Part shown: in pieces, positions 2,395 through 44,777 of the stretch
Position numbering within the stretch: position 1 is the first letter of the stretch
Layout of the letters: every line of letters begins with the position of its first letter
Source: Planctomycetales bacterium ZRK34
GTDB taxonomy: Bacteria > Planctomycetota > Phycisphaerae > Phycisphaerales > Zrk34
Direction: 5' to 3'
DNA length: 64,000 nucleotides
NCBI GenBank assembly: GCA_014873095.1
Contig: CP050848.1
Coordinates: 124,001 to 188,000, forward strand
Made by a program: the position numbers and the translations under genes
The notes under the pieces: model-generated
The model's database searches: none
What the model was told of the DNA's origin: nothing
The model's input: the letters and a program-made list of their open reading frames with translations, nothing else

Positions 2395-3366
2395 TCAGTT
2401 GCGATTGGATCGGCGGCCAAGCAGCAGAACACCGAACAGGCTGAGGCCCGCGGGCAAAGCGGCCGGCGTCGGAATCGTCACGATCAGCAGGTCAAGCGGG
2501 CGGCCAAGCGACTGAGCGGGCCCGAAGCTCGTTCCAGCATTGGAGTTTGACACGTCATACTTGTAAACGAGCTGATCCGTAAATCCCGCCAGGTACACAT
2601 CGCCGTTATCAGCAACGGCGACACCGACGGAAAATTCATTGCCGGTGGAAAGTCCCGGGATATTGGCGACGAACGTGCCGTCAGTCTGACGCTCGCGGAC
2701 CAGAAAGTTGGTGCCGCCCCCTTCCACGGAGTGGTAGAGATTGCCGTTGGAGCCGATCGTGATTCCCTGGGTGTTGGTCTGACCGGTGGCCAGCACGTCG
2801 ATCAGATCGCCCGAACTGTCGAACTTCAGCACGCGGGTGTCGCCACGGTCGGCCAGGTAGAGATTGCCGCTGGAATCAAACACGATGCCGCGCGGGACGT
2901 TGAGTGTGTCATCACCGGCGTTGTTGCCCGGATCACTGAAGGTATTGGTGACAAATGTCGAGGCGGTGGTGGCGCCGGTGACCTTGTAGATCTGCTTCGT
3001 GCCGAAGGCATCGGAGAAATACACGCTGCCGTCCGGTGCGACCGCGAGCATGTCAACGCGGGTCGTGCTGGAACTGGTGAAATATGTGTCGACGAAGGAG
3101 CCGCCGAGCGTGTACCGATTGATGGCATTGTTGCCGCTGCTGCTGGTGGTGTCGGCAATGTAGACGTATCCGTCGGTCGGGTTGTACGCCAAGCCTCCGG
3201 GTTTGTAGCCGGTAGCGAACGTTCCGAGGAAGTTGCCGTCCAGATCGTAGCTGAGCACGCGTTCGTTGGTGGTGTCACCGACGAGCAACATTTGAGCAGC
3301 CATGAGCGGGCCGGCCGACAGCGTCAGCACGCATACGAGAATCATCAGACGAGTTGTACGAAACAT
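2395..3366 (-). CDS. NHL-repeat secreted protein with IPTPxALPAGL C-terminal sorting tail
   Basis: 323 aa. The start at 3366 is preferred over 3372 because the AAAGGAG ribosome site abuts the upstream ATG but lies six bases from this one. A signal peptide (about 1-22, ending LMAAQ) precedes an NHL-type beta-propeller covering about residues 25-295, with blade motifs such as GYVYIADT, GSVYFSDAF and NLYLADRGDTRVLKF. The C-terminus reads IPTPAALPAGL, a hydrophobic stretch, then GRRSNRN. This is a PEP-CTERM/VPLPA-like sorting signal of a variant type. The propeller is visibly homologous to the C-terminal half of the FecR-type protein encoded immediately upstream, which suggests that the pair interact or compete for the same ligand. 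Confidence 0.88.
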   Translation of the reverse strand: MFRTTRLMILVCVLTLSAGPLMAAQMLLVGDTTNERVLSYDLDGNFLGTFATGYKPGGLAYNPTDGYVYIADTTSSSGNNAINRYTLGGSFVDTYFTSSSTTRVDMLAVAPDGSVYFSDAFGTKQIYKVTGATTASTFVTNTFSDPGNNAGDDTLNVPRGIVFDSSGNLYLADRGDTRVLKFDSSGDLIDVLATGQTNTQGITIGSNGNLYHSVEGGGTNFLVRERQTDGTFVANIPGLSTGNEFSVGVAVADNGDVYLAGFTDQLVYKYDVSNSNAGTSFGPAQSLGRPLDLLIVTIPTPAALPAGLSLFGVLLLGRRSNRN

Positions 3367-3380
3367 GAGCATCTCCTTTA

Positions 3381-5039
3381 TTAATCAGACTTAGAAATCG
3401 GATCCAGGCGAAGCAGGTGGGTCGGGCCTTCGAGGCCATGACCACCATGTGCAAAATCACTGATCTGTCCATTGGGGTCTATGCGTATCAGGCGTCGGCT
3501 GCGCCAATCGCTGATCACCGCGCTGCCGTCTATCAGCACGATGCCGTCGATCAGAAACGGTGATGAGGAACTATCCGTATACACAGCCGCCGGACGCACT
3601 GGTCCGGGCGAGATCAACCACAGACCGGTCTGCCGGCTCGGGTTGGCCGTGACCAACACGCGGTCGTGATCAACGACAAGACCTTGTGGTTTATTCAATC
3701 GAGCGACGATACCGACAAACCGCCCCGGTTGGGTGGATTGCGGGCCCTCGAACTTCAACACCATGCTGCGTTCACGATCGCTGACCAGCAGCGCCCCGGA
3801 AGCGTCGAACGCCAGCCCGCGAGGCAGTTCCAACTTTTGCGACGGCGCATAGGTTTTGGGGATAAACACACGCGCCGCGCCGTCTTCGACTCGATAAACC
3901 TGCTGCGAATCGAAGGCATCGGTGAAATACACCCGGTCGTCGGGGCCAATCGCCACGGCGTCGGGTTTGATCTGCGGGTCGCCCGCGCACACCACCTCGG
4001 CGACGCGCCCCTGTGAATTCAACAGCAGAATGCGGCCGTTTGATTCAGCTTCGGCCAGGTAGATCATGCCATCGGTGCGCTGGGCCATGCCGCCGGGCTT
4101 GCTGAGCGGACGACCGGCCAGATCGCCTTCGACGAACGCGCCGCAGTACATGCCATCTTCACCAAAAGCCATCACACGCCCGGTCTCCGAGTCGCTGACC
4201 AGCACGCGCGACAACGCCAGAATCTCAACCTGGCGGCTGTTCATCGACAGCCTCGCCAGTTGACCCGCTTTCACCTGCGGCAGGTTGATCGCTGATCGAC
4301 CGGACGATTCCCGGTGCAGCGCCACGGCGCCTTCAACGACCCGTACCTCCGCGATTCCATCACCAGTCAGCACGATGGAAAAACGTGTGCCCAGGTCCAC
4401 CACGCGCGACCCATCCGGCAGTTCGACGCTGAACCCGGCGGCTTCTTCACGCACGTAAGCTTCGAGCCTGCCGGCAAGCAGGCGGCCCTGATTGGGACCG
4501 ATCAATTCAAACGAGCACGGGCCGATCAGGTCCACCACCGCCCCGGACTTGAACATGACCTGCGAAGTGCCGGCCGTCAGTTGGATCGGGCCGATCGGCA
4601 ACTCCTGCCCCAGCCGAACCGTCGCGGATCGACCGGCGAAAACCGCGTCAGCCGAAGCGTCCGAGAGCATTGCCACGGCCGTGGTCGGTGCGGGTTTGAC
4701 ATTCGAGTCCTTCGACCCGGCATCCAGCAACAACCATGCGGTGACTGCGATGATCATCGCGGCGGCGATCGCGGCGGCTGAGTACCAGACGCTTCGGCTT
4801 CGCCTCAGCGTCGGCGTGGTATCCATATCGAGGTTCAACTTCGAGCGTTGAGCCGTCGCCGCGGCTGACAGCGATTCACGCAGCACGCGTCCTTCGATGC
4901 AGAATCTGACGAACTGATCGCGCGCCGCTGAATCATCATGCAGCATCGCATTGAGCTGATCGCGCTCCGCGGGTGTCGACTGCCCGTCGAGATGACGGTC
5001 AACCAGGTACTCCAGCGTCATGTTCACGGGTTCAGTCAT
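3381..5039 (-). CDS. FecR-type anti-sigma-like membrane protein with C-terminal NHL propeller (cassette 1)
   Basis: 552 aa. Domain order: a cytoplasmic N-terminal segment (1-83) with the Zn-less anti-sigma-like pattern LVDRHLDGQSTPAERDQL; one transmembrane helix (84-107); an extracytoplasmic FecR domain (about 135-262) containing VDLGTRFSIV; and an NHL propeller (about 275-545) with RVYFTDAF and LPRGLAFDASG. Its ATG overlaps the sigma-factor stop codon by four bases, the usual arrangement for a sigma/anti-sigma pair. By analogy with FecR systems it should hold the sigma factor and release it after an outside signal. The propeller mirrors that of the downstream NHL protein. Codons 75-85, just before the membrane helix, are supplied by a REP-like palindrome (4785-4815). 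Confidence 0.88.
   Translation of the reverse strand: MTEPVNMTLEYLVDRHLDGQSTPAERDQLNAMLHDDSAARDQFVRFCIEGRVLRESLSAAATAQRSKLNLDMDTTPTLRRSRSVWYSAAAIAAAMIIAVTAWLLLDAGSKDSNVKPAPTTAVAMLSDASADAVFAGRSATVRLGQELPIGPIQLTAGTSQVMFKSGAVVDLIGPCSFELIGPNQGRLLAGRLEAYVREEAAGFSVELPDGSRVVDLGTRFSIVLTGDGIAEVRVVEGAVALHRESSGRSAINLPQVKAGQLARLSMNSRQVEILALSRVLVSDSETGRVMAFGEDGMYCGAFVEGDLAGRPLSKPGGMAQRTDGMIYLAEAESNGRILLLNSQGRVAEVVCAGDPQIKPDAVAIGPDDRVYFTDAFDSQQVYRVEDGAARVFIPKTYAPSQKLELPRGLAFDASGALLVSDRERSMVLKFEGPQSTQPGRFVGIVARLNKPQGLVVDHDRVLVTANPSRQTGLWLISPGPVRPAAVYTDSSSSPFLIDGIVLIDGSAVISDWRSRRLIRIDPNGQISDFAHGGHGLEGPTHLLRLDPISKSD
4785..4815. repeat. REP-like palindrome inside the FecR coding sequence
   Basis: A 31-base palindromic sequence with GACGCT (4788-4793) and AGCGTC (4807-4812) as arms. 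Its reverse complement matches the intergenic sequence 11948-11978 at 28 of 31 positions. More degenerate relatives are at 47893-47921 and 58799-58824. Here it encodes residues 75-85, the linker just before the transmembrane helix of the anti-sigma-like protein. Confidence 0.7.
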
Positions 5040-32813: not shown

Positions 32814-33386
32814 ATGCCATCATCAGATCGACATGACGACGCCATGCCCGCCGGTGATGATCGCCCGGCACGATTCATGAAGCTGTTTAATCGGCACAGC
32901 CGCCAGATCTATGCCTACATTCTCTGCCTGGTGGGTAACACGACCGACGTCGACGATTTGCACAGCGAAACCAATCTGGCGATGTGGCAGAGTTTCGACC
33001 AGTTTGATGAGTCTGATCCGCAATCCGATTTCGCCGCCTGGGGTCGCACCATCGCCCGGTATCGCGTGCTTCGATATTTCGACAGTCGCAAGACTGCCGC
33101 GCGTCAATTCAGTACGCAGACGATCGAAGCGCTGTCGCAAGAGGTCGAACATATGGCGCATACGGACCGGGTTCATGAGACGCTCGGCGAGTGTCTTCAA
33201 AAGCTGCCGCCTGAGCAGTACGAACTGATCCGCTGTCGCTATCTGCAGGCCATCCACGCGCGCAAGATTGCTGAGCAATTGGGGATTTCCGTATTCACGC
33301 TCTACAAGCGCCTGGCGCACATCCGTCAGCAGTTGCTCAACTGCATCCGCCGCACGTTGAACCTCGACGCGGAGGGCAGGCTGTGA
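32814..33386 (+). CDS. ECF-like RNA polymerase sigma factor (cassette 2)
   Basis: 190 aa, ATG 32814 with AAAGGAAA upstream. Region 2 covers about 20-90 (FMKLFNRHSRQIYAYILCLVGNTTDVDDLHSETNLAMWQ) and region 4 about 120-180 (LQKLPPEQYELIRCRYLQ, then helix-turn-helix ARKIAEQLGISVFTLYKRLAHIRQQL). It is the same small planctomycete/verrucomicrobial sigma type as in cassette 1, but the two are clearly diverged, so they are not a recent duplication. A four-base overlap (GTGA) couples it to the FecR-type gene. It likely drives cassette 2 after release by that protein. The gap upstream to the divergent old yellow enzyme gene is 251 bases. Confidence 0.9.
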   Translation: MPSSDRHDDAMPAGDDRPARFMKLFNRHSRQIYAYILCLVGNTTDVDDLHSETNLAMWQSFDQFDESDPQSDFAAWGRTIARYRVLRYFDSRKTAARQFSTQTIEALSQEVEHMAHTDRVHETLGECLQKLPPEQYELIRCRYLQAIHARKIAEQLGISVFTLYKRLAHIRQQLLNCIRRTLNLDAEGRL

Positions 33387-34942
33387 GCCCCGACTCCACG
33401 ACACCCCTGGCTGAGTGGATCACCGCCCAACGGGAAGACGCGTTGAGTCACGAAGATCATGCGGCGCTGGACGCCCTGCTTCGTGATGACGCCGAGGCGC
33501 GTCGACAGTACATCCTTCTGGCCATGATCGACACCTCGTGTCAGATGCGATTCGCATCGGATGTTGACTTGGATGTCGCAACAGCCCACGACTATTCGGC
33601 TGGGAACATCATCAATCGTCGCGATGAACGTTTCTGGAATGCCCCCGCGCTCAAGACGATCGCTGCGTTGGCGGCGGCGGTGTTGATCATCGCGACTGTT
33701 GGCTTCGTGGTGCTCAGCAAATCACCACCCACCCCCGGGACGGTGGATCCGCTGCCCATGGTCGCCACGATTGTTCGTTGCGAGGGCGCACGCTGGTCAT
33801 CGACGCCTCTGCATGAAGGGCAGGATTTGCGACCGGGTTACATCGCCATCGATGCCGGCGAGGTCGAAGTGCTCTTTGCCGACGGCTCGATGGTCACGCT
33901 CAGCGGGCGCAGCGAGTTGGAACTGACCAGCACCAACACCGGCTACCTGAGCCTGGGCACCTTAACCGCCACGAGCTTGCCGGGTTTCACGATCACCGCG
34001 CCGCATGGTGTTCGCGTGGTGGATCTGGGGACGCGATTCAGCGTTCAGGTCGGCGCGACTGGTGAAGCGACGGTGGGCGTTTGGGACGGCTCGGTGCGAG
34101 TGTATCGCGATGCAACGGACAGCGGTGTCGTGCTGACGACCGGCGACATGGCGCGGCTCTACGGGGGCCGCGCCGAGTTGAGCCGCGCCGATCGATCCAC
34201 CCCAGCGGCTTACGCTTCGGTTATTGAAGGATTCGATTATCGACTGGACACCACGCTGAGCGGCCAGGGCTTTCTGGGCAACGGGTTTACCGGCCCCTGG
34301 CGCGGCCCGACGGCGTTCAGCGTGACGGCCGAGGGCCAGCACAACATGGTCGGCGAGGTTCACGGAGCAGCCGGCAACGTGTACATCGATCGAACGCTGG
34401 TGTCGCCGATCGATTTTGATCATGACGGCGTGTACTACATGAGCTTTGTGATTCGCGATGAGGATGTCGATGCCCGGGACGAGTATTTCTGGGTGGGTCT
34501 GCAATCCTCCGGCGATGCCGACCCGACGTGGGGAATCAAGGCGGCATTCGGCCTCAGCAGCAACGAGCACGCGATGCTGGCGATCAACAGCACGCTCAAC
34601 GGATACATAGTCGGCCCGGCGATAGCGACCGATCGCTGGCAGCGTTATCTGTGCCGGGTTCAAACACGCGCCGAGGGGGCTGATGAAATCTCGTTGCTCA
34701 TCCTCGACGCTGAAGAAACCACGCCCCGCGATGAGCCGCTGGAATGGACCATGACGCTTTCGCGACCCATCACCGGAATCGCCGACGAGTTGCACATCCA
34801 GGCAGGCCCCAAAACGCGAACGCGTTTCGATGATATTCGAATCGGCGCGACGCTTGATTCGGCCCTGCCTTCACATCGATCCGAATCGCCCCGGAGTGAG
34901 AGTGACAACCATCCGCCATCCCAAAAGGAGATTTCAGAATGA
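33383..34942 (+). CDS. FecR-type anti-sigma-like membrane protein with C-terminal lectin-like domain (cassette 2)
   Basis: 519 aa from GTG 33383, which overlaps the sigma-factor TGA. Domains: cytoplasmic segment 1-88 (EWITAQREDALSHEDHAALDALLRDD); transmembrane helix about 89-112; FecR domain about 125-275 with VEVLFADGSMVTLSG and VVDLGTRFSVQVG; then a beta-sandwich (about 285-505) with EGFDYRLDT, GVYYMSFVIRD, EYFWVGLQ and GPKTRTRFDDIRIGAT. The last domain matches residues about 290-515 of the surface protein encoded next, over its whole length. It is presumed to hold the sigma factor inside and sense the surface outside. Its stop overlaps the next ATG by four bases, so the first three genes are translationally coupled. 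Confidence 0.88.
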   Translation: MSPDSTTPLAEWITAQREDALSHEDHAALDALLRDDAEARRQYILLAMIDTSCQMRFASDVDLDVATAHDYSAGNIINRRDERFWNAPALKTIAALAAAVLIIATVGFVVLSKSPPTPGTVDPLPMVATIVRCEGARWSSTPLHEGQDLRPGYIAIDAGEVEVLFADGSMVTLSGRSELELTSTNTGYLSLGTLTATSLPGFTITAPHGVRVVDLGTRFSVQVGATGEATVGVWDGSVRVYRDATDSGVVLTTGDMARLYGGRAELSRADRSTPAAYASVIEGFDYRLDTTLSGQGFLGNGFTGPWRGPTAFSVTAEGQHNMVGEVHGAAGNVYIDRTLVSPIDFDHDGVYYMSFVIRDEDVDARDEYFWVGLQSSGDADPTWGIKAAFGLSSNEHAMLAINSTLNGYIVGPAIATDRWQRYLCRVQTRAEGADEISLLILDAEETTPRDEPLEWTMTLSRPITGIADELHIQAGPKTRTRFDDIRIGATLDSALPSHRSESPRSESDNHPPSQKEISE

Positions 34943-36555
34943 CACGGTTCAACCCTCAACGCCCGTTTGCCACGGCCTGCTTCGGCGCGCTGCTCGGCCT
35001 GACCCTGACCACCGGCGTCGCCCAGGCGGATGTGCTGACTTACTCACAGCTTGCCGCGCTGGATTCAAACATCATCGTGCAGTACTCCTTCGACGGGGCC
35101 ACCACGACCGAGCGCCAGGAGGACAAAACCTCCGGCACGAACGATCTGATTATCAAGACGCAAGGCTCCGGCAGCGGGGCCGCCATCTCCTACGGCGCGG
35201 GTTTTGACGGGTCCAGCGACGCCGTCTCTCCCCAACGGATCAACGGCTCAAACGGGGCGGCGTTCTCGACGAGCGCCGCAATCAATACGACTGCAAACAC
35301 CGCTTACTCCTACGAAGCCATTCTGCAGGTGCCGGATTTTAACGACAACGGCACAGGCTATATTTTTGCCACGCGATCAAGCACGGCCACCCGGGATTAC
35401 TGGAGTGCGCACCAGCACGCTGGGAGCGGCGCAGATAGCGTCTTCACCACATCGGGCGACAACTTCACCAACTCCTCCAACATCATTCCAAGCGTCACGG
35501 GCGGCAGCTGGTATTACGTCGCGGTGACCAAGGAACTGGTCGCAGGCAACACGCAGGTCAACACATGGATGGCGAACCTGTCCAACGGCGACACCGCCCT
35601 CACCCAGGTCGCGACAAATCAGACCGTGTCGGGCAGTTTCCAGAACAACATCGCCATGGGCGTCGGGATGGTCAACAGCATCGGCAGCTATGTAGAGGCT
35701 TTTGGCGGTTCGATCGACGAAGTCTCGCTGTACAGCGGTCTTCGCACACAGAGCAACTTCCAGACCTCACTGGATCGCATCAACGCCTCGCCGACACTGG
35801 TCTATGAACCGTTTGACTACAGTGCCGGTGATCTGAACACCAACAACAGCAGCGCGCTCGGCCTGACCGGCGCCTGGAACGGGAACACATCGTTCGACGT
35901 CACCGCCGGAAGCCTGAACTACCCTGCCTCGTCCCCGTTGAGTTCCACCGCCAACAAAGCCGAGCTGTCCGGCAGCAATGGCACCAACCCGCGCATCGAC
36001 CGCACGATGAGTACCCCGATCAGCTTCGATGAAGCGGGTGTCTACTACGTCAGCTTCCTGATGAATGACACGAATGCCGGCGGCAGCGAGTACTTCTACG
36101 TCGCGCTGCAGGACTCAACCGCCCCGGATCAGACCTGGGACATCACGGCCGCCTTCGGCATCAGCAGTTCCGAAACCATGCTGCTGACGACCGTCGACGG
36201 TCAGACCGGCTACACAGCGGGCGGAGCCATCCCGACGGGGCAGGACGTGCTGGTGATTGGCAAGATCATCACCACTGCAAGCGGCAACGACCAGGTCTTC
36301 ATGTCGGTCTACGACTCATCGGAAACCGTTCCCCTTACTGAACCGATCAGTTGGGACCTGTCCAAGTCGGTTGAGATCACCGGCCTGGCCGATCAGTTGC
36401 TGCTGATGTCCGGGCCTGACACGCAGACCCGCGTTGATGAAATCCGCATCGGCACCACGTTCAACTCCGTCGCCGTCGCCGCCATCCCCACCCCCACGGC
36501 CCTGCCGGCGGGACTGGCCCTGCTAACGATGGCGGCGATGCGCCGTCGTAAATGA
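34939..36555 (+). CDS. LamG plus lectin-like surface protein with IPTPxALPAGL sorting tail (cassette 2)
   Basis: 538 aa, ATG 34939 with AAAAGGAGA upstream. Signal peptide about 1-30 (ending GVAQA). A LamG-like domain (about 45-280) runs from [14 protein letters not shown] to [15 protein letters not shown] second beta-sandwich (about 290-512) has [28 protein letters not shown] and [16 protein letters not shown], matching the outer domain of the upstream FecR-type protein. The tail is [23 protein letters not shown], the same variant sorting signal as the NHL protein of cassette 1. The protein joins in one chain what cassette 1 encodes as two (mirror domain and LamG). Probably exported and attached or released at the surface; the ligand is unknown. 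Confidence 0.87.
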
Positions 36556-36631: not shown

Positions 36632-37366
36632 ATGCAGGATCGACACGATCAAACAGGCTTCACGCTGATCGAACTGCTGGTGGTCGTTTCCATCATCGCC
36701 CTGCTGATCGCGATCCTGTTGCCATCGTTGTCGGCCGCCAGGGAACAGTCGCGCCGCGTGGCCTGCGGGGTGAACATCCGCCAACATCTGACGATCGCGC
36801 TGACCGAAGCGGTCGCCGACAAGGGCAAGCTCCCCGACTGGCACAACGACTCCGGCCGCTGGGGTACGGATTGGACCTACCCCGTCACTTCACCGGTCGA
36901 TAAGAACTATCCGCACATCTTCGACCTTGATGCGCGCAACTATCTGCTTGAAAAACTCAAGACCACGCGCGACATGTACTACTGCCCTTCGAATCATGAC
37001 GAATGGTGGAACCGCGACGACTTCTGGCAGGACAGCGCGTACACCTCCGGCTGGGGCTATGTCTACTTCGGCGCCGCCCCCAAGGGACACGCCAGATGGA
37101 ATTACCTCGCCGGCACGAAAGAGCCTTTCGCCATCAACCTCCATGATCGGCCCATGTACGACATCCTCTGGACGGACCTGAACCGTCAGATCAACGGCGT
37201 CGGATGGTTTCGCTTCGACCCGGCCCGCGGGGCCAACCACTTCGATGACCTGACCGGCAACCCCGTCGGCGCCAACAACGGCTACCTTGACGGCCACGTC
37301 GAATGGGTCAACTTCGCCCGAATGAACGCCGAGATGACACGCCCGAATTGGAAGTTCTGGTGGTAA
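36632..37366 (+). CDS. Type II secretion-like pseudopilin (cassette 2)
   Basis: 244 aa, ATG 36632 with CGGAGC upstream. Class III signal: MQDRHDQTG, cleavage before F10, Glu at +5, then [24 protein letters not shown] and [18 protein letters not shown]. The rest is a globular domain with many aromatic residues ([39 protein letters not shown]) and the DG motif [12 protein letters not shown] near the end, which is also LDGHVE[YW] in the cassette 1 pseudopilin. Expected to be processed by a prepilin peptidase. Position in the operon, after the mirror-type surface protein, matches cassette 1; the next gene follows 48 bases later. Confidence 0.92.
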
Positions 37367-40073: not shown

Positions 40074-43000
40074 TCATCGCCTGCGTCGACTGAAACAAAT
40101 CGCAGACCCCACGATCAACAAGCCGGCGACACCCGGCTCGGGGGTATTGACCAACGCCAGCAGTCCGTCGACAGTCTGACCGTAATGCTGACTCAGCAGC
40201 GTCAGGTCGGCGATGTCTATAAAGCCATCCTGGTTGAAGTCGCCGTCGGACCAGGCCACATCCGATGTTCGGCCGTAGTTCTGCGACAGCAGGACCAGGT
40301 CGGCAATGTCAACGAGGTTGTCGACATTGGCGTCGCCGAGGAGCGTGGCGCGGGCGAGGATCGACCCCTCAACGCCGCCGAAGTCATCATCGTAAAGCAC
40401 CGCGAGCGTCAGATCGCCCAGCGGACCGACCGCCGATGTGTCGATCTCCGCAAAACGTCCGTTGCGCAGCCCGTCATAGTTGACCAGCTCAAACACTTCG
40501 CCGGCGACAGGCATGTATCCATCGAGCAGCGAGAGGTTGAGTGCGCCGTTGAGCGACACATCGTCGGTGATCACCAACTGGTCATACTCATCACCGGCTG
40601 TCGGGCCGGCGATCTGGAAATTGAATGTGCTGGTTTCAGACTGATCCACGCTGCCGAAGACCTGCAGGCGGCCGGGCGAATTGCCGATATCCAGGTCGCC
40701 GTCGCTGACCAGTTGCCCCGCGATGCGGCCGCTGCCGCTCAGCGTGGTGTCGGGCGTGATGTTGAGTTGGCCGGTTTCGACCACGCCGTCGACGTTGACC
40801 TGCCCGCCGCTGAGCGTGACGGAATCCGCGGAAAGATAGCTGTTTTCGTCGACGTGGAGCACGCCGCCGGAGGGGCTGTCGGGCTCGAACGTGTTGAAGA
40901 AATCCCCGTGGACAATGATCTGGCCGCCGTCGGTGATGTTCAGCGCGCCGTAGTTGTCGAAGCGGCCGGCGGTGTTGTCGATGTCGAGCTGATTACCGTT
41001 GGCGATAGTCAGTTCGCCGTAGTTTGTCCTCAGCGCGGCGCCGAGGCCGACAAAGGATGCTTCTTTGCCCGCGAGGGTGAGTTTGCCGGAGGGGTCGATG
41101 ACGAAGTTGTCGGACAGCGCAACGTCGAGCGTTGTCGGGTGGGTGGTGTTGGTCTCCGCGTCGTAGTTGTCGTTGATGGTCAACGTACTGGCGAGTTCAT
41201 TGCGGATGTTCGCACCGCCGATGCGGATATCGGATGAGGCGTCAGCGACCACGGAGCCAGCGTTGATCACGAGGTTGTAGACCTTCATCAAGGCGCTGTT
41301 GGTGAGCGTGGTGGCGCCGCCGTTGTTGGTGTAGTCGCCGCGGACATCAAGAATGGCATTGGTGTCGATGTTGATGGCGCCGGAGTTTGCCAGGCCGCCG
41401 GTGGTGATGAAGTTCTGACGACGGGCAAAATTGATCGTGCCGCGGTTTTCCTGGACGGTGTTGAAGTACCGGAACGAGGCGGCGCCGGAAAGGGTGACAT
41501 TGGCTTCGTTGATGACAAGCTTGGTGTCGTAGGCGCTGATGTCGTAGACGTTGGAGAGGATGTTGTCGCCGTTGCTGATTTTGACGACGTCGACATTGAG
41601 CACGGCCAGATCCGGGTCAAGCGCCTCGTCGGGCGCGGGCGGCGCGGTGGTGTTGGTCCAGAATTGATCGGCGCCGATGAGGTTCCACGTGCCGCCGACG
41701 AGTTTGGCCCCGCCTTCGGCGTAGTCCTTGATCTCAACCTGGAAACCGAACTCGGCGCCGGCGTTGATCTGAATGGTGCCATCGTTGACGAGATTGATCG
41801 GAACGATGAACGGTTCGGGCACCACCGGGGGCGCGTCGGGGTCCAGCGAGCCAATCGGCTTGAGGAAGAGATTGTTGCGGCCGGAAGCGATGATCAGCGT
41901 GCCGTGGTTCTGAACATCGATGAAGCGCGAGGCGGCCTCGGTGTATATGTCTGAGTCGCTGAGCGAGACGCCGCCCTGCTCGGGAAAGATGATGCCGTTC
42001 AGCGTGAGCGTGCCGCCGGCATCGGTCACGAAGCGGGACTGTACATCAAATCGCTGCTGCAGCGCCTGGCTGAAAAGAATCTCGCCGCCGCCCGCCGCGT
42101 GGAACATCATTGCTTTCTGTACCGCCGCGCCGAAGTCCACGGTGCTCTGCAGGCCCACCTTCGGCGTTCCGGCAAAGACCACCATGCCGCCGTCAGACGC
42201 GGCGAATTCACCCGTGGTGGATGTAGTGGTGATGAACGGATTGCCGGTGATCATCAGCATCGAGCCGGCGCCATCGGCGCTGATCACGCCGTCCTGCGTA
42301 AAAGTTGGCGCGTTGATCGTCAACAGCCCGGCATTGCGGACCTGCATCTGCCCGGTAGTCTGGTTGGCGAGCTGATTGCTCAGCGTCAGCGCGACGCTGT
42401 TGCCGTCGATGATGATCGTGCCGGCATTGTCGAGTGTCTGCGAAATCGCAAACTGATGTGTGCTCACGTTGTAGGCGGTGGGGTAATCAACCTGGTAGCC
42501 CAGCCCGTCCACTGGTAGCGCACCGGCCCTGAAGAGCTGCGTCGAACGGACCAGGTTCTGATACTGCTGACTGTAAGTGATATCAATGATGGGATTGCCG
42601 GTGGAGATCGACGACGGCGGGTTGTGATCAAGGTACAGGTCGACGGTGTCATCACCGCCGGGCGTGGAGAAAGGCGTCGGCGCGTTGAGCACGATCGTGT
42701 GGCCTTCGCCGTTGACCAACAAGTCGGCCGTGAACTTCGCCGGGCCGTCGAATGTCATCTGGCCCGATCCGACGATGTTCAGCACGCTGCCGGTGGCGAT
42801 GAATTCGGTATAGCCGCTGCCGTGATAATCGCCGTCGTTTTTCACCTCGTTGAGTTGCCACCGCCGCACACCAGACTGCTCATAGGTCGAGCCCGGTAGA
42901 ATCTGAAGCCGATTCACCGACGTGATCGCGTCAGTATTCATAGCCTGGATGGTGGTCAGATCCAGATTCCAGTAGTCAACGATGTTCGAGTAGGTGGTGG

Positions 43001-44777
43001 TGATCGACGACTTGGCGGTGATGCTGTTGATCGTGGTGATTTCCGACATCGCCCCGTCATCGTGAAACACCATCGGCGTCAGTTCACCGACATGATCGAC
43101 CGGGGCGGCGCTGTAACCGATCACCAGCGTCTTGCCCGCCAGCGAACTCGGCGCAACACCGCCGTCGAGCGTCCGCCATTTCGACAAATCATCCAGTGCG
43201 TCAGCCGCATCGTCCTGGGTGCGATACACACGCGTGCTGGCCTGTGCCTGCAGGGTGAACAACTGCTGCGCCAAATCCAGCGCGATCGGATCGATATCGA
43301 CGGTCGTCGAAAAGATGTCCAACTCAATGTCGCCGAGCAAACTGCCCAGCAGCGAAGTCTTTTTCTCCACCAGGGCCGGCAGCGAAAGGCTGTATTCATC
43401 GAGCACGTTCAGTTCGGTCACCGTCAGCAGGCTCAGGTCCAGAAAGTCGGTCAGGTAGAACGAGCCGGTCTTGGTCTGCGTGCCGATCAGATTGTTGAAG
43501 TCGACCGCGACCTGCACCGATTCGTCACTGAGCAAAGAAATGTCAGGCAAATTGCTCCACTTGCCGCTGAAGCTGTCGACGAGACTGACAATGCCGTCGG
43601 CATCCTTCATGACAATGGTGTGATCAAAATGCAGCGTGACATCGAAATCGGTTTCGACATTGACGGTTTCGCGATACCCGATCTGCGGGCCGTATTTGAT
43701 GTCGAACAGCTCAGCATCGATCGTTGCGACATCGCCGATTTCCGCCTGGATGTCGGGGCTGAATGACGGATTGCCACTGAGCACCGTAGCCACGCCGTCA
43801 AGGTCGAGTCCGAGTTGCAGCAGCGGCGTTTCGAAGGAGTAGTTCACGCCCGTTGAATCCGACGACGCGCTGACCTTGAGGTTCGGCCCGGTATCACCGA
43901 GAAACGAATCGCCGGAGCCGAATGGATTGACCAGCTTCACCGAGCCAACCTCGACCTGCTTGCCGAACACCAGTACGCTGATGTCTTTCTCGCCGATGTA
44001 CTCCCCGCCGGGCGCCTCCCCGAGCGTCTGCTCGATCGCCGTGCCGGTGAACATGCTGAACGTCGGCGGCGTGGGATTGGCCGGGTCCAGATCAAATCCG
44101 AAATTCAACAGGTTCTGATTCACGTGCAGTGGGTCGGGGCTAAAGCTCGTCGAGCTGTAGGGAATGAACGGAAACAGGCCGGTTTCTACCGTGCTGTTCA
44201 GCGCCATGTCGAAGTAAAAGTCCATGCCCGCGTTGAACGAGGGCAGCGTGACATTGCTGTTGTCGAACGCAGCGTTGGACTGCATCCCGGTGGTCGTCTG
44301 CAGTTTGATAAATGAACCGACCTGAAACTCCGTCGGCGTGTCGACGGTCGGTTTGAAATCGAAATCGCTGCCGGTCTTGAGTTGGCTCGCTTGGAAATTC
44401 GCGTAAAAGTTCAGCCCGACGCCGCCGGAGATGCTGCCGCTGAATTTCGCGCCGGTGCGTGTGTCGGCCTTCACTTCGGGAATGACCGTCTTACCGGCGA
44501 TGGTCACCTCCGGAATGATCGTCGCATTCTCCGAGCCGATGATGCCACCGAGCGAAAAGTTGGTGTCCCACGAGGTACCGAGGTTGTAGTTCCAATCGAT
44601 ACTGCCGATCGCATTGACCTCGCCGAGATCGATCGCGCTGCCAAGGTCCAGTTCGGCCGCTCGTGTCCATGCCCCCCCGCCGCACATCATCACCAGCGTG
44701 ACAAATCCGACCACCCCACGGCGAGCGGTTTTGTACAATCCAGCCCACAATCCAAGTACCACATCATGCTTCCGCAT
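40074..44777 (-). CDS. Giant PEP-CTERM surface protein with dockerin-like Ca-binding repeats
   Basis: 1567 aa from ATG 44777, chosen for GGAGGG upstream; the frame opens earlier. Signal peptide about 1-45 after a basic start. Residues 46-600 form beta-rich modules with no family I can name. Residues about 600-1430 are repetitive beta strands with recurring xxGxIxIDxNAxLxVxG-like units (GTIIIDGNSVALTLSN, GAINIDTNAILDVRGD), the pattern of autotransporter/adhesin beta-helices. At about 1470-1530 are two dockerin-type EF-hand repeats (GDANVDNLVDIADLVLLSQN; GDFNQDGFIDIADLTLLSQH), then TPEPGVAGLLIVGSAICFSRRRR as PEP-CTERM signal. Likely a long adhesin or sheath protein. Confidence 0.88.
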   Translation of the reverse strand: MRKHDVVLGLWAGLYKTARRGVVGFVTLVMMCGGGAWTRAAELDLGSAIDLGEVNAIGSIDWNYNLGTSWDTNFSLGGIIGSENATIIPEVTIAGKTVIPEVKADTRTGAKFSGSISGGVGLNFYANFQASQLKTGSDFDFKPTVDTPTEFQVGSFIKLQTTTGMQSNAAFDNSNVTLPSFNAGMDFYFDMALNSTVETGLFPFIPYSSTSFSPDPLHVNQNLLNFGFDLDPANPTPPTFSMFTGTAIEQTLGEAPGGEYIGEKDISVLVFGKQVEVGSVKLVNPFGSGDSFLGDTGPNLKVSASSDSTGVNYSFETPLLQLGLDLDGVATVLSGNPSFSPDIQAEIGDVATIDAELFDIKYGPQIGYRETVNVETDFDVTLHFDHTIVMKDADGIVSLVDSFSGKWSNLPDISLLSDESVQVAVDFNNLIGTQTKTGSFYLTDFLDLSLLTVTELNVLDEYSLSLPALVEKKTSLLGSLLGDIELDIFSTTVDIDPIALDLAQQLFTLQAQASTRVYRTQDDAADALDDLSKWRTLDGGVAPSSLAGKTLVIGYSAAPVDHVGELTPMVFHDDGAMSEITTINSITAKSSITTTYSNIVDYWNLDLTTIQAMNTDAITSVNRLQILPGSTYEQSGVRRWQLNEVKNDGDYHGSGYTEFIATGSVLNIVGSGQMTFDGPAKFTADLLVNGEGHTIVLNAPTPFSTPGGDDTVDLYLDHNPPSSISTGNPIIDITYSQQYQNLVRSTQLFRAGALPVDGLGYQVDYPTAYNVSTHQFAISQTLDNAGTIIIDGNSVALTLSNQLANQTTGQMQVRNAGLLTINAPTFTQDGVISADGAGSMLMITGNPFITTTSTTGEFAASDGGMVVFAGTPKVGLQSTVDFGAAVQKAMMFHAAGGGEILFSQALQQRFDVQSRFVTDAGGTLTLNGIIFPEQGGVSLSDSDIYTEAASRFIDVQNHGTLIIASGRNNLFLKPIGSLDPDAPPVVPEPFIVPINLVNDGTIQINAGAEFGFQVEIKDYAEGGAKLVGGTWNLIGADQFWTNTTAPPAPDEALDPDLAVLNVDVVKISNGDNILSNVYDISAYDTKLVINEANVTLSGAASFRYFNTVQENRGTINFARRQNFITTGGLANSGAINIDTNAILDVRGDYTNNGGATTLTNSALMKVYNLVINAGSVVADASSDIRIGGANIRNELASTLTINDNYDAETNTTHPTTLDVALSDNFVIDPSGKLTLAGKEASFVGLGAALRTNYGELTIANGNQLDIDNTAGRFDNYGALNITDGGQIIVHGDFFNTFEPDSPSGGVLHVDENSYLSADSVTLSGGQVNVDGVVETGQLNITPDTTLSGSGRIAGQLVSDGDLDIGNSPGRLQVFGSVDQSETSTFNFQIAGPTAGDEYDQLVITDDVSLNGALNLSLLDGYMPVAGEVFELVNYDGLRNGRFAEIDTSAVGPLGDLTLAVLYDDDFGGVEGSILARATLLGDANVDNLVDIADLVLLSQNYGRTSDVAWSDGDFNQDGFIDIADLTLLSQHYGQTVDGLLALVNTPEPGVAGLLIVGSAICFSRRRR

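Follow-up and report, generated by a model that had tools for sequence, protein, structure and literature searches.

Why should the outer part of a membrane anti-sigma factor resemble the exported protein encoded by the gene that follows it? The question is raised by a stretch of 64,000 nucleotides from Planctomycetales bacterium ZRK34 (class Phycisphaerae; GCA_014873095.1, contig CP050848.1, positions 124,001 to 188,000; the whole stretch is referred to below as the window), in which an earlier note, made from the sequence alone, had described two gene cassettes with such a resemblance. We concentrate on the second cassette, in which the genes for an extracytoplasmic function (ECF) sigma factor, a FecR-type membrane anti-sigma factor of 519 residues (33383..34942), an exported PEP-CTERM-type protein of 538 residues (34939..36555) and a prepilin follow one another on the forward strand. 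Judging from domain architecture, the anti-sigma factor probably acts as a sensor and the exported protein as its target, and we use these two words throughout; their genes share 4 bp (34939-34942).

By BLASTP, residues 255-493 of the sensor align with residues 260-510 of the target at 101 identities over 255 residues (40%, 153 bits, E 6e-45). The alignment that the earlier note had proposed as a check thus confirms that the FecR-type protein is homologous in its outer half to the second half of the surface protein, and it contains all four of the motif pairs quoted there. A profile of the pair, searched against the complete genome, returned the two copies at 428 and 419 bits, followed by a paralog at 97 and then by scores of 28 and 20; since no other copy in the genome exceeds 100 bits, the resemblance is particular to these two genes. 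Among 60 relatives the pair profile found a single match above 50 bits, and in a profile search of wider genome contigs the two-row alignment of the pair gave no match and a four-row alignment two loci. The sensor and target copies form a sister pair, with support of 99/94, in a tree of 25 sequences that includes the paralog and 22 homologs. Residues conserved in the family are mostly retained in both window copies (18 and 21 of 28), an observation that does not separate the explanations considered below.

Is this pair an isolated case? For a survey of the chromosome we built a profile from the N-terminal halves of FecR proteins, took all sensor neighbourhoods and called their genes with a codon-usage script; for E-values the database size was set at 2 million residues throughout, the 1.24 Mb around all FecR genes supplied the background genes, and three whole-genome searches served as checks. 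The profile search recovered about 94 FecR-type sensors in the 5.71 Mb chromosome, 93 of which were surveyed. In 43 of 88 cassettes the next gene matched the outer domain of its own sensor (E<1e-3), against a mean of 1.08 and a maximum of 6 in 5000 shufflings, in which next genes were permuted among the cassettes of the same genome; at the stricter E<1e-10 there were 38 such matches against 0.56. Profile searches that included the unmirrored half of the cassettes added few (45 of 88, against 5.6 on shuffling). The effect also has a sharp position: matches occur at the next gene in 43 of 93 neighbourhoods, at the second gene in seven, and at every other position in none to two. The earlier note had called for a survey of this kind and had named as adverse a result in which the next gene matches no better than any other gene; for the FecR proteins of this genome the outcome is the reverse, far above random pairing. 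One sensor, g1420535 (G000:C1, near 1417196-1420535), departs from the pattern of position: its best match (42%) lies beyond the sigma gene, four genes upstream, and the stretch between holds further homologs.

LamG-type domains are common in sensors and targets alike, and one might suppose that lectin-like domains are so frequent near FecR genes that matching neighbours are simply to be expected. The shuffled counts, with and without profiles, fall far short of those observed, and in whole-genome searches the neighbour is the top non-self match both for the window pair and for a further sensor, for which it is the only strong one (61%); we therefore regard this explanation as extremely improbable, and the shuffling test rules out the abundance of LamG-type domains as the cause of the mirroring. 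In a third search, with the sensor of cassette 1, the neighbour was found but paralogous cassettes scored higher.

The mirroring is also not the property of one domain. Clustering the 93 outer domains by sequence gives 44-54 groups, depending on the threshold, and mirrored cassettes occur in 31-36 of them; there are fewer unrelated folds than that, since several sequence families may share the superfold of concanavalin A (ConA). Pfam recognises Laminin_G_3 in 24 of 90 sensors, NPCBM in five, and CBM96 and HpiC1-like domains in three each, with F5/8 type C (two), L-type lectin (one) and CBM_4_9 (one) being rarer and NHL repeats also present; the targets carry largely the same set. At least five types named by Pfam occur in mirrored sensors, namely NHL, F5/8 type C, CBM_4_9, LamG and HpiC1-like. 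That the window's two cassettes differ in fold, as had been claimed, is correct: cassette 1 mirrors NHL repeats and cassette 2 a ConA-like sandwich. For this genome the proposal that the sensor equals the target, whatever the domain, has strong support. Mirroring is strong where an outer domain is private to one cassette (30 of 42) and rare in clusters of four or more sensors (4 of 37). Similarity between outer domains is uncorrelated with similarity between the inner halves of the anti-sigma factors (Mantel rho -0.04), from which we conclude that domains have been exchanged between cassettes with sensor and target still matched.

How old is the arrangement, and how far does it extend? A genome from another genus of the same family (G005) shows mirroring at 14 of 42 next genes, where 0.69 would be expected. 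Four mirrored cassettes are clearly orthologous between the two genomes, with identities of 44-51% between sensors and 44-61% between targets; within these cassettes sensor and target are 33-42% identical in the present genome and 27-52% in G005. Because the identities between orthologs mostly exceed those between sensor and target, the duplications predate the split of the genera, and neither copy has since been lost. Elsewhere the next gene is mirrored in none of 27 cassettes in a third member of the family (G003) and in none of 37 in a related family (f6), where a single match occurs at the second gene. The mirroring is thus restricted to a lineage, being limited, bar that one case, to two of the tested genera. 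The broader expectation of the earlier note, a rule for the FecR proteins of planctomycetes, does not hold in general: about half of the cassettes follow it here and a third in the sister genus. In G003 (L150-L169) 13 of 27 cassettes have a prepilin immediately after FecR, and a PEP-CTERM-type target is often missing, exosortases being present nonetheless; the constant third gene of the cassette looks like the prepilin, not the target.

These distributions bear on a further explanation, according to which domain copying between neighbouring genes generates new targets or sensors and the resemblance is kept without any logic of sensing. Several sensor-target pairs are 58-62% identical, targets that neighbour one another are often homologous (12 of 29), and the narrow range of the mirroring would also be expected of such a process. 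It would have to account, however, for at least four mirrored cassettes that arose before the two genera parted and still have both copies, for a single sharp position at the next gene where ordinary adjacent genes on the same strand are homologous in only 25 of 488 cases (5%), and for the involvement of dozens of different domain families. Retention across genera together with the sharp effect of position makes a pure by-product of duplication less likely, and we consider it unlikely overall.

What, then, does the duplicated domain of cassette 2 look like? It has no name in Pfam or NCBIfam and matches no PDB chain by sequence. The AlphaFold models of the sensor copy (34226..34867; predicted local distance difference test score, pLDDT, 71.6; predicted template-modelling score, pTM, 0.72) and of the target copy (35806..36474; pLDDT 66.8, pTM 0.75) are both all-beta. 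With E-values of 1e-7 to 1e-5 and template-modelling scores of about 0.45-0.59, Foldseek matches both to lectin domains, among them that of calreticulin, to L-type lectins, to lyases of alginate and glucuronan and to sialidase chains, model confidence being moderate. Since the matches are lectins and polysaccharide lyases, the domain is, as modelled, a ConA-like lectin/glucanase sandwich. Where it recurs in other genomes of the class, it is usually an accessory part of a BNR-repeat sialidase-like enzyme and in one instance of a GH18 enzyme, and some of these relatives stand alongside dockerins, LamG or PEP-CTERM; occurrence on such enzymes fits a carbohydrate-binding module (CBM). BNR sialidase-like enzymes of Phycisphaerae repeatedly carry this unnamed ConA-like accessory domain at their C-terminus (L064 316-2439; L192-L218), and it is a candidate for a new CBM family. 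Dockerin-like modules also stand beside the mirrored domain in other genomes, and the window itself encodes an exported protein of 1567 residues (40074-44777) with a weak dockerin-type match and a PEP-CTERM-like tail.

The remaining parts of the cassette are of recognisable types. The sigma gene (32877..33386, with a longer reading from 32814) shares 4 bp with the FecR gene, and its product belongs to the TIGR02989 Rhodopirellula/Verrucomicrobium family (126.6 bits, cut-off 124.55) and carries the Pfam sigma-70 domains of regions 2 and 4. In the sensor, about 90 inner residues are followed by a single membrane span at residues 91-112 or so (33653..33718; read from the sequence and aligned with 38 paralogs), by a FecR domain at residues 159-239 (33857..34099; PF04773, 27.2 bits against a cut-off of 24, E 5e-6) and then by the outer domain. 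The target begins with a signal peptide; its N-terminal half (35035..35800) appears LamG-like by eye, from a [13 protein letters not shown] motif, and scores under the Pfam thresholds. After the mirrored domain comes a C-terminal sorting-type signal, [22 protein letters not shown] (36487..36552), a PEP-CTERM-like variant common to most targets. This tail, [10 protein letters not shown]...RRRK, scores below the Pfam and NCBIfam thresholds; with its P-x-P motif, hydrophobic stretch and basic end it has the features of a PEP-CTERM/exosortase substrate, and exosortases (PF09721) are encoded twice in the genome (G000:C1 2907321-2908100 and 5243417-5244190). The last gene (36632..37366) encodes a prepilin-type (pseudopilin) protein with an N-methylation motif and a weak match to DUF1559.

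The cassette is of the FecI/FecR type, in that its ECF sigma gene immediately precedes the gene for a FecR-domain protein with one membrane span. Across the genome, 89 of 93 FecR genes are directly preceded by a same-strand gene of 100-260 codons, in most cases with an overlap of 4 or 8 bp. Escherichia coli FecR is cleaved by RseP (PMC8144685), and RseP-type M50 proteases are encoded in this genome, so that the sigma-FecR gene pair, the single span and the protease all recall FecI/FecR signalling (PMC9249621, PMC8144685). Unlike in that system, no match to a TonB-dependent transducer of the FecA type was found in the window cassette, the next genes encoding PEP-CTERM-type exported proteins and prepilins, and a separate outer domain of 170-320 residues follows the FecR domain.

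The closest precedent for the mirroring itself comes from Clostridium thermocellum, in which the outer CBM, PA14 or GH10 modules of the anti-sigma factors RsgI1-6 bind polysaccharides (PMC4711584, PMC6056542), and in which the GH10 module of RsgI6 is 57% identical to Xyn10D, whose gene is activated by sigma-I6 (PMC4711584). Both systems have membrane anti-sigma factors with an outer CBM or enzyme domain in multiple parallel copies, and RsgI6/Xyn10D is the one published mirror; in the mirrored cassettes described here the outer module is likewise homologous to the product of the next gene. They do not belong to the RsgI family, however: SigI factors lack region 4 and the RsgI N-terminal domain is of another family, whereas here a TIGR02989 sigma factor with regions 2 and 4 is paired with a FecR-type anti-sigma factor. 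SigI/RsgI targets are mostly enzymes of a regulon, whereas here the target is the exported protein of the next gene, in which no enzyme domain is recognised; and eight or nine SigI/RsgI copies compare with about 90 here, spread over dozens of domain types.

By analogy with RsgI6/Xyn10D, we lean towards the view that each anti-sigma factor senses the ligand that its target binds, while granting that this could well turn out otherwise. Each cassette would then be a self-contained regulatory operon spanning the membrane, in which the FecR-type anti-sigma factor holds the ECF sigma factor; in mirrored cassettes the outer domain, as a copy of the surface protein's binding domain, would respond to the ligand of that protein, which is probably a glycan. 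Binding of the ligand outside would lead to proteolysis of the anti-sigma factor by an RseP-type protease, and the freed sigma factor would switch on the operon, so that target and prepilin are expressed. The lectin and CBM character of many of the mirrored domains is plain from their family assignments, and together with the ConA-like models it suggests that the outer module may bind an extracellular polysaccharide. The shared ligand and its identity as a glycan, like the proteolytic release of the sigma factor, are what we infer from these parallels, and that the sigma factor controls the next gene is suggested by the operon structure.

Several observations weigh against sensing of a shared ligand. 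Half of the cassettes of this genome are unmirrored and related genomes retain the cassette without mirroring, so that the machinery evidently does not need it. The NHL propellers mirrored in cassette 1 are not binders of glycans in particular. A search of the regions preceding the sigma genes for a shared sigma-dependent promoter gave nothing beyond A/T-rich words. Moreover, in the 25-sequence tree the sensor branch is long (1.31) and the target branch short (0.23), and in five of six orthologous cassettes the targets are more alike than the sensors; such faster evolution of the sensor has no obvious fit with an equal constraint by one ligand.

Could the sensor instead recognise the target protein itself, by self-association or by competition for a shared partner, so that the anti-sigma factor reports the presence, export or assembly of its own surface protein? 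Any fold would then serve, NHL propellers included, and the placement of sensor and target in one operon, mostly adjacent, the mirroring of private but not of shared sensor families and the retention of the pairing in orthologous cassettes would all be accounted for. That many of the mirrored domains belong to ligand-binding lectin or CBM families is less readily explained in this way. Because the sensor copies evolve faster and folds other than lectins succeed, we keep such homotypic feedback in consideration as a real, though distinctly less probable, explanation. Taken as a general logic, with each anti-sigma factor sensing an image of the protein it controls, or the export or assembly of that protein, irrespective of fold, it would make dozens of surface proteins individually homeostatic; in this wider form we find the idea rather doubtful.

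In the lysozyme receptor system RsiV/SigV the ligand is a protein, and the outer domain of RsiV is not known to be shared with the product of a gene under its control. The likeness to the present cassettes, if these sense as we propose, is an anti-sigma factor that doubles as the receptor of a ligand outside the cell (PMC5014341). The targets resemble PEP-CTERM/exosortase surface proteins in ending in a PEP-CTERM or related PTPAALPAGL...RRR tail and in the presence of two exosortases (PMC1569441), and in the open-access literature searched (subscription journals were outside its scope) we found neither an earlier link of such proteins to a mirrored anti-sigma factor of the same operon nor a description of sigma/FecR/target/prepilin cassettes. 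Two types of target tail, VPEP... and PTPAALPAGL..., occur in the genome and may belong to different exosortases.

Cassette 1 lies on the reverse strand. Its FecR-type sensor (3381..5039), found by the FecR profile and scoring below the Pfam FecR threshold, has an outer NHL-repeat domain at 3384-4238, which is mirrored at 34% identity over 170 residues by the NHL-repeat target (2395..3345), a protein with a PTPAALPAGL-type C-terminus. A second PEP-CTERM gene downstream (1477-2379) encodes a LamG_3 domain that is not mirrored in the NHL-type sensor. As in cassette 2, a dedicated prepilin-type gene (639-1412) closes the cassette; the same holds for nearly every cassette of the genome, a prepilin occurring within five genes downstream of the sensor in 89 of 93 cases, most commonly as the second gene (67). 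The prepilins show no co-variation in similarity with the sensors or the targets, and the idea that the prepilin of a cassette recognises the cargo domain accordingly finds no support. Some 94 such cassettes in one genome constitute an extreme expansion; G003 and G005, of the same family, have dozens each, and in many other genomes of the order such cassettes are few or absent.

If the outer domain of the sensor does report the ligand of its target, the genome would amount to a lookup table, in which the ligands of uncharacterised surface proteins could be approached through a reporter driven by their own sigma factor, and the wiring of about 90 ECF systems to their targets would be readable from sequence. 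A principle known from a few clostridial cellulose sensors would then have arisen again, on the scale of a genome and in an unrelated sigma/anti-sigma family, with the many domain exchanges serving as natural replicates. If sensor and target instead recognise each other, the cassettes would represent a new way to regulate surface proteins.

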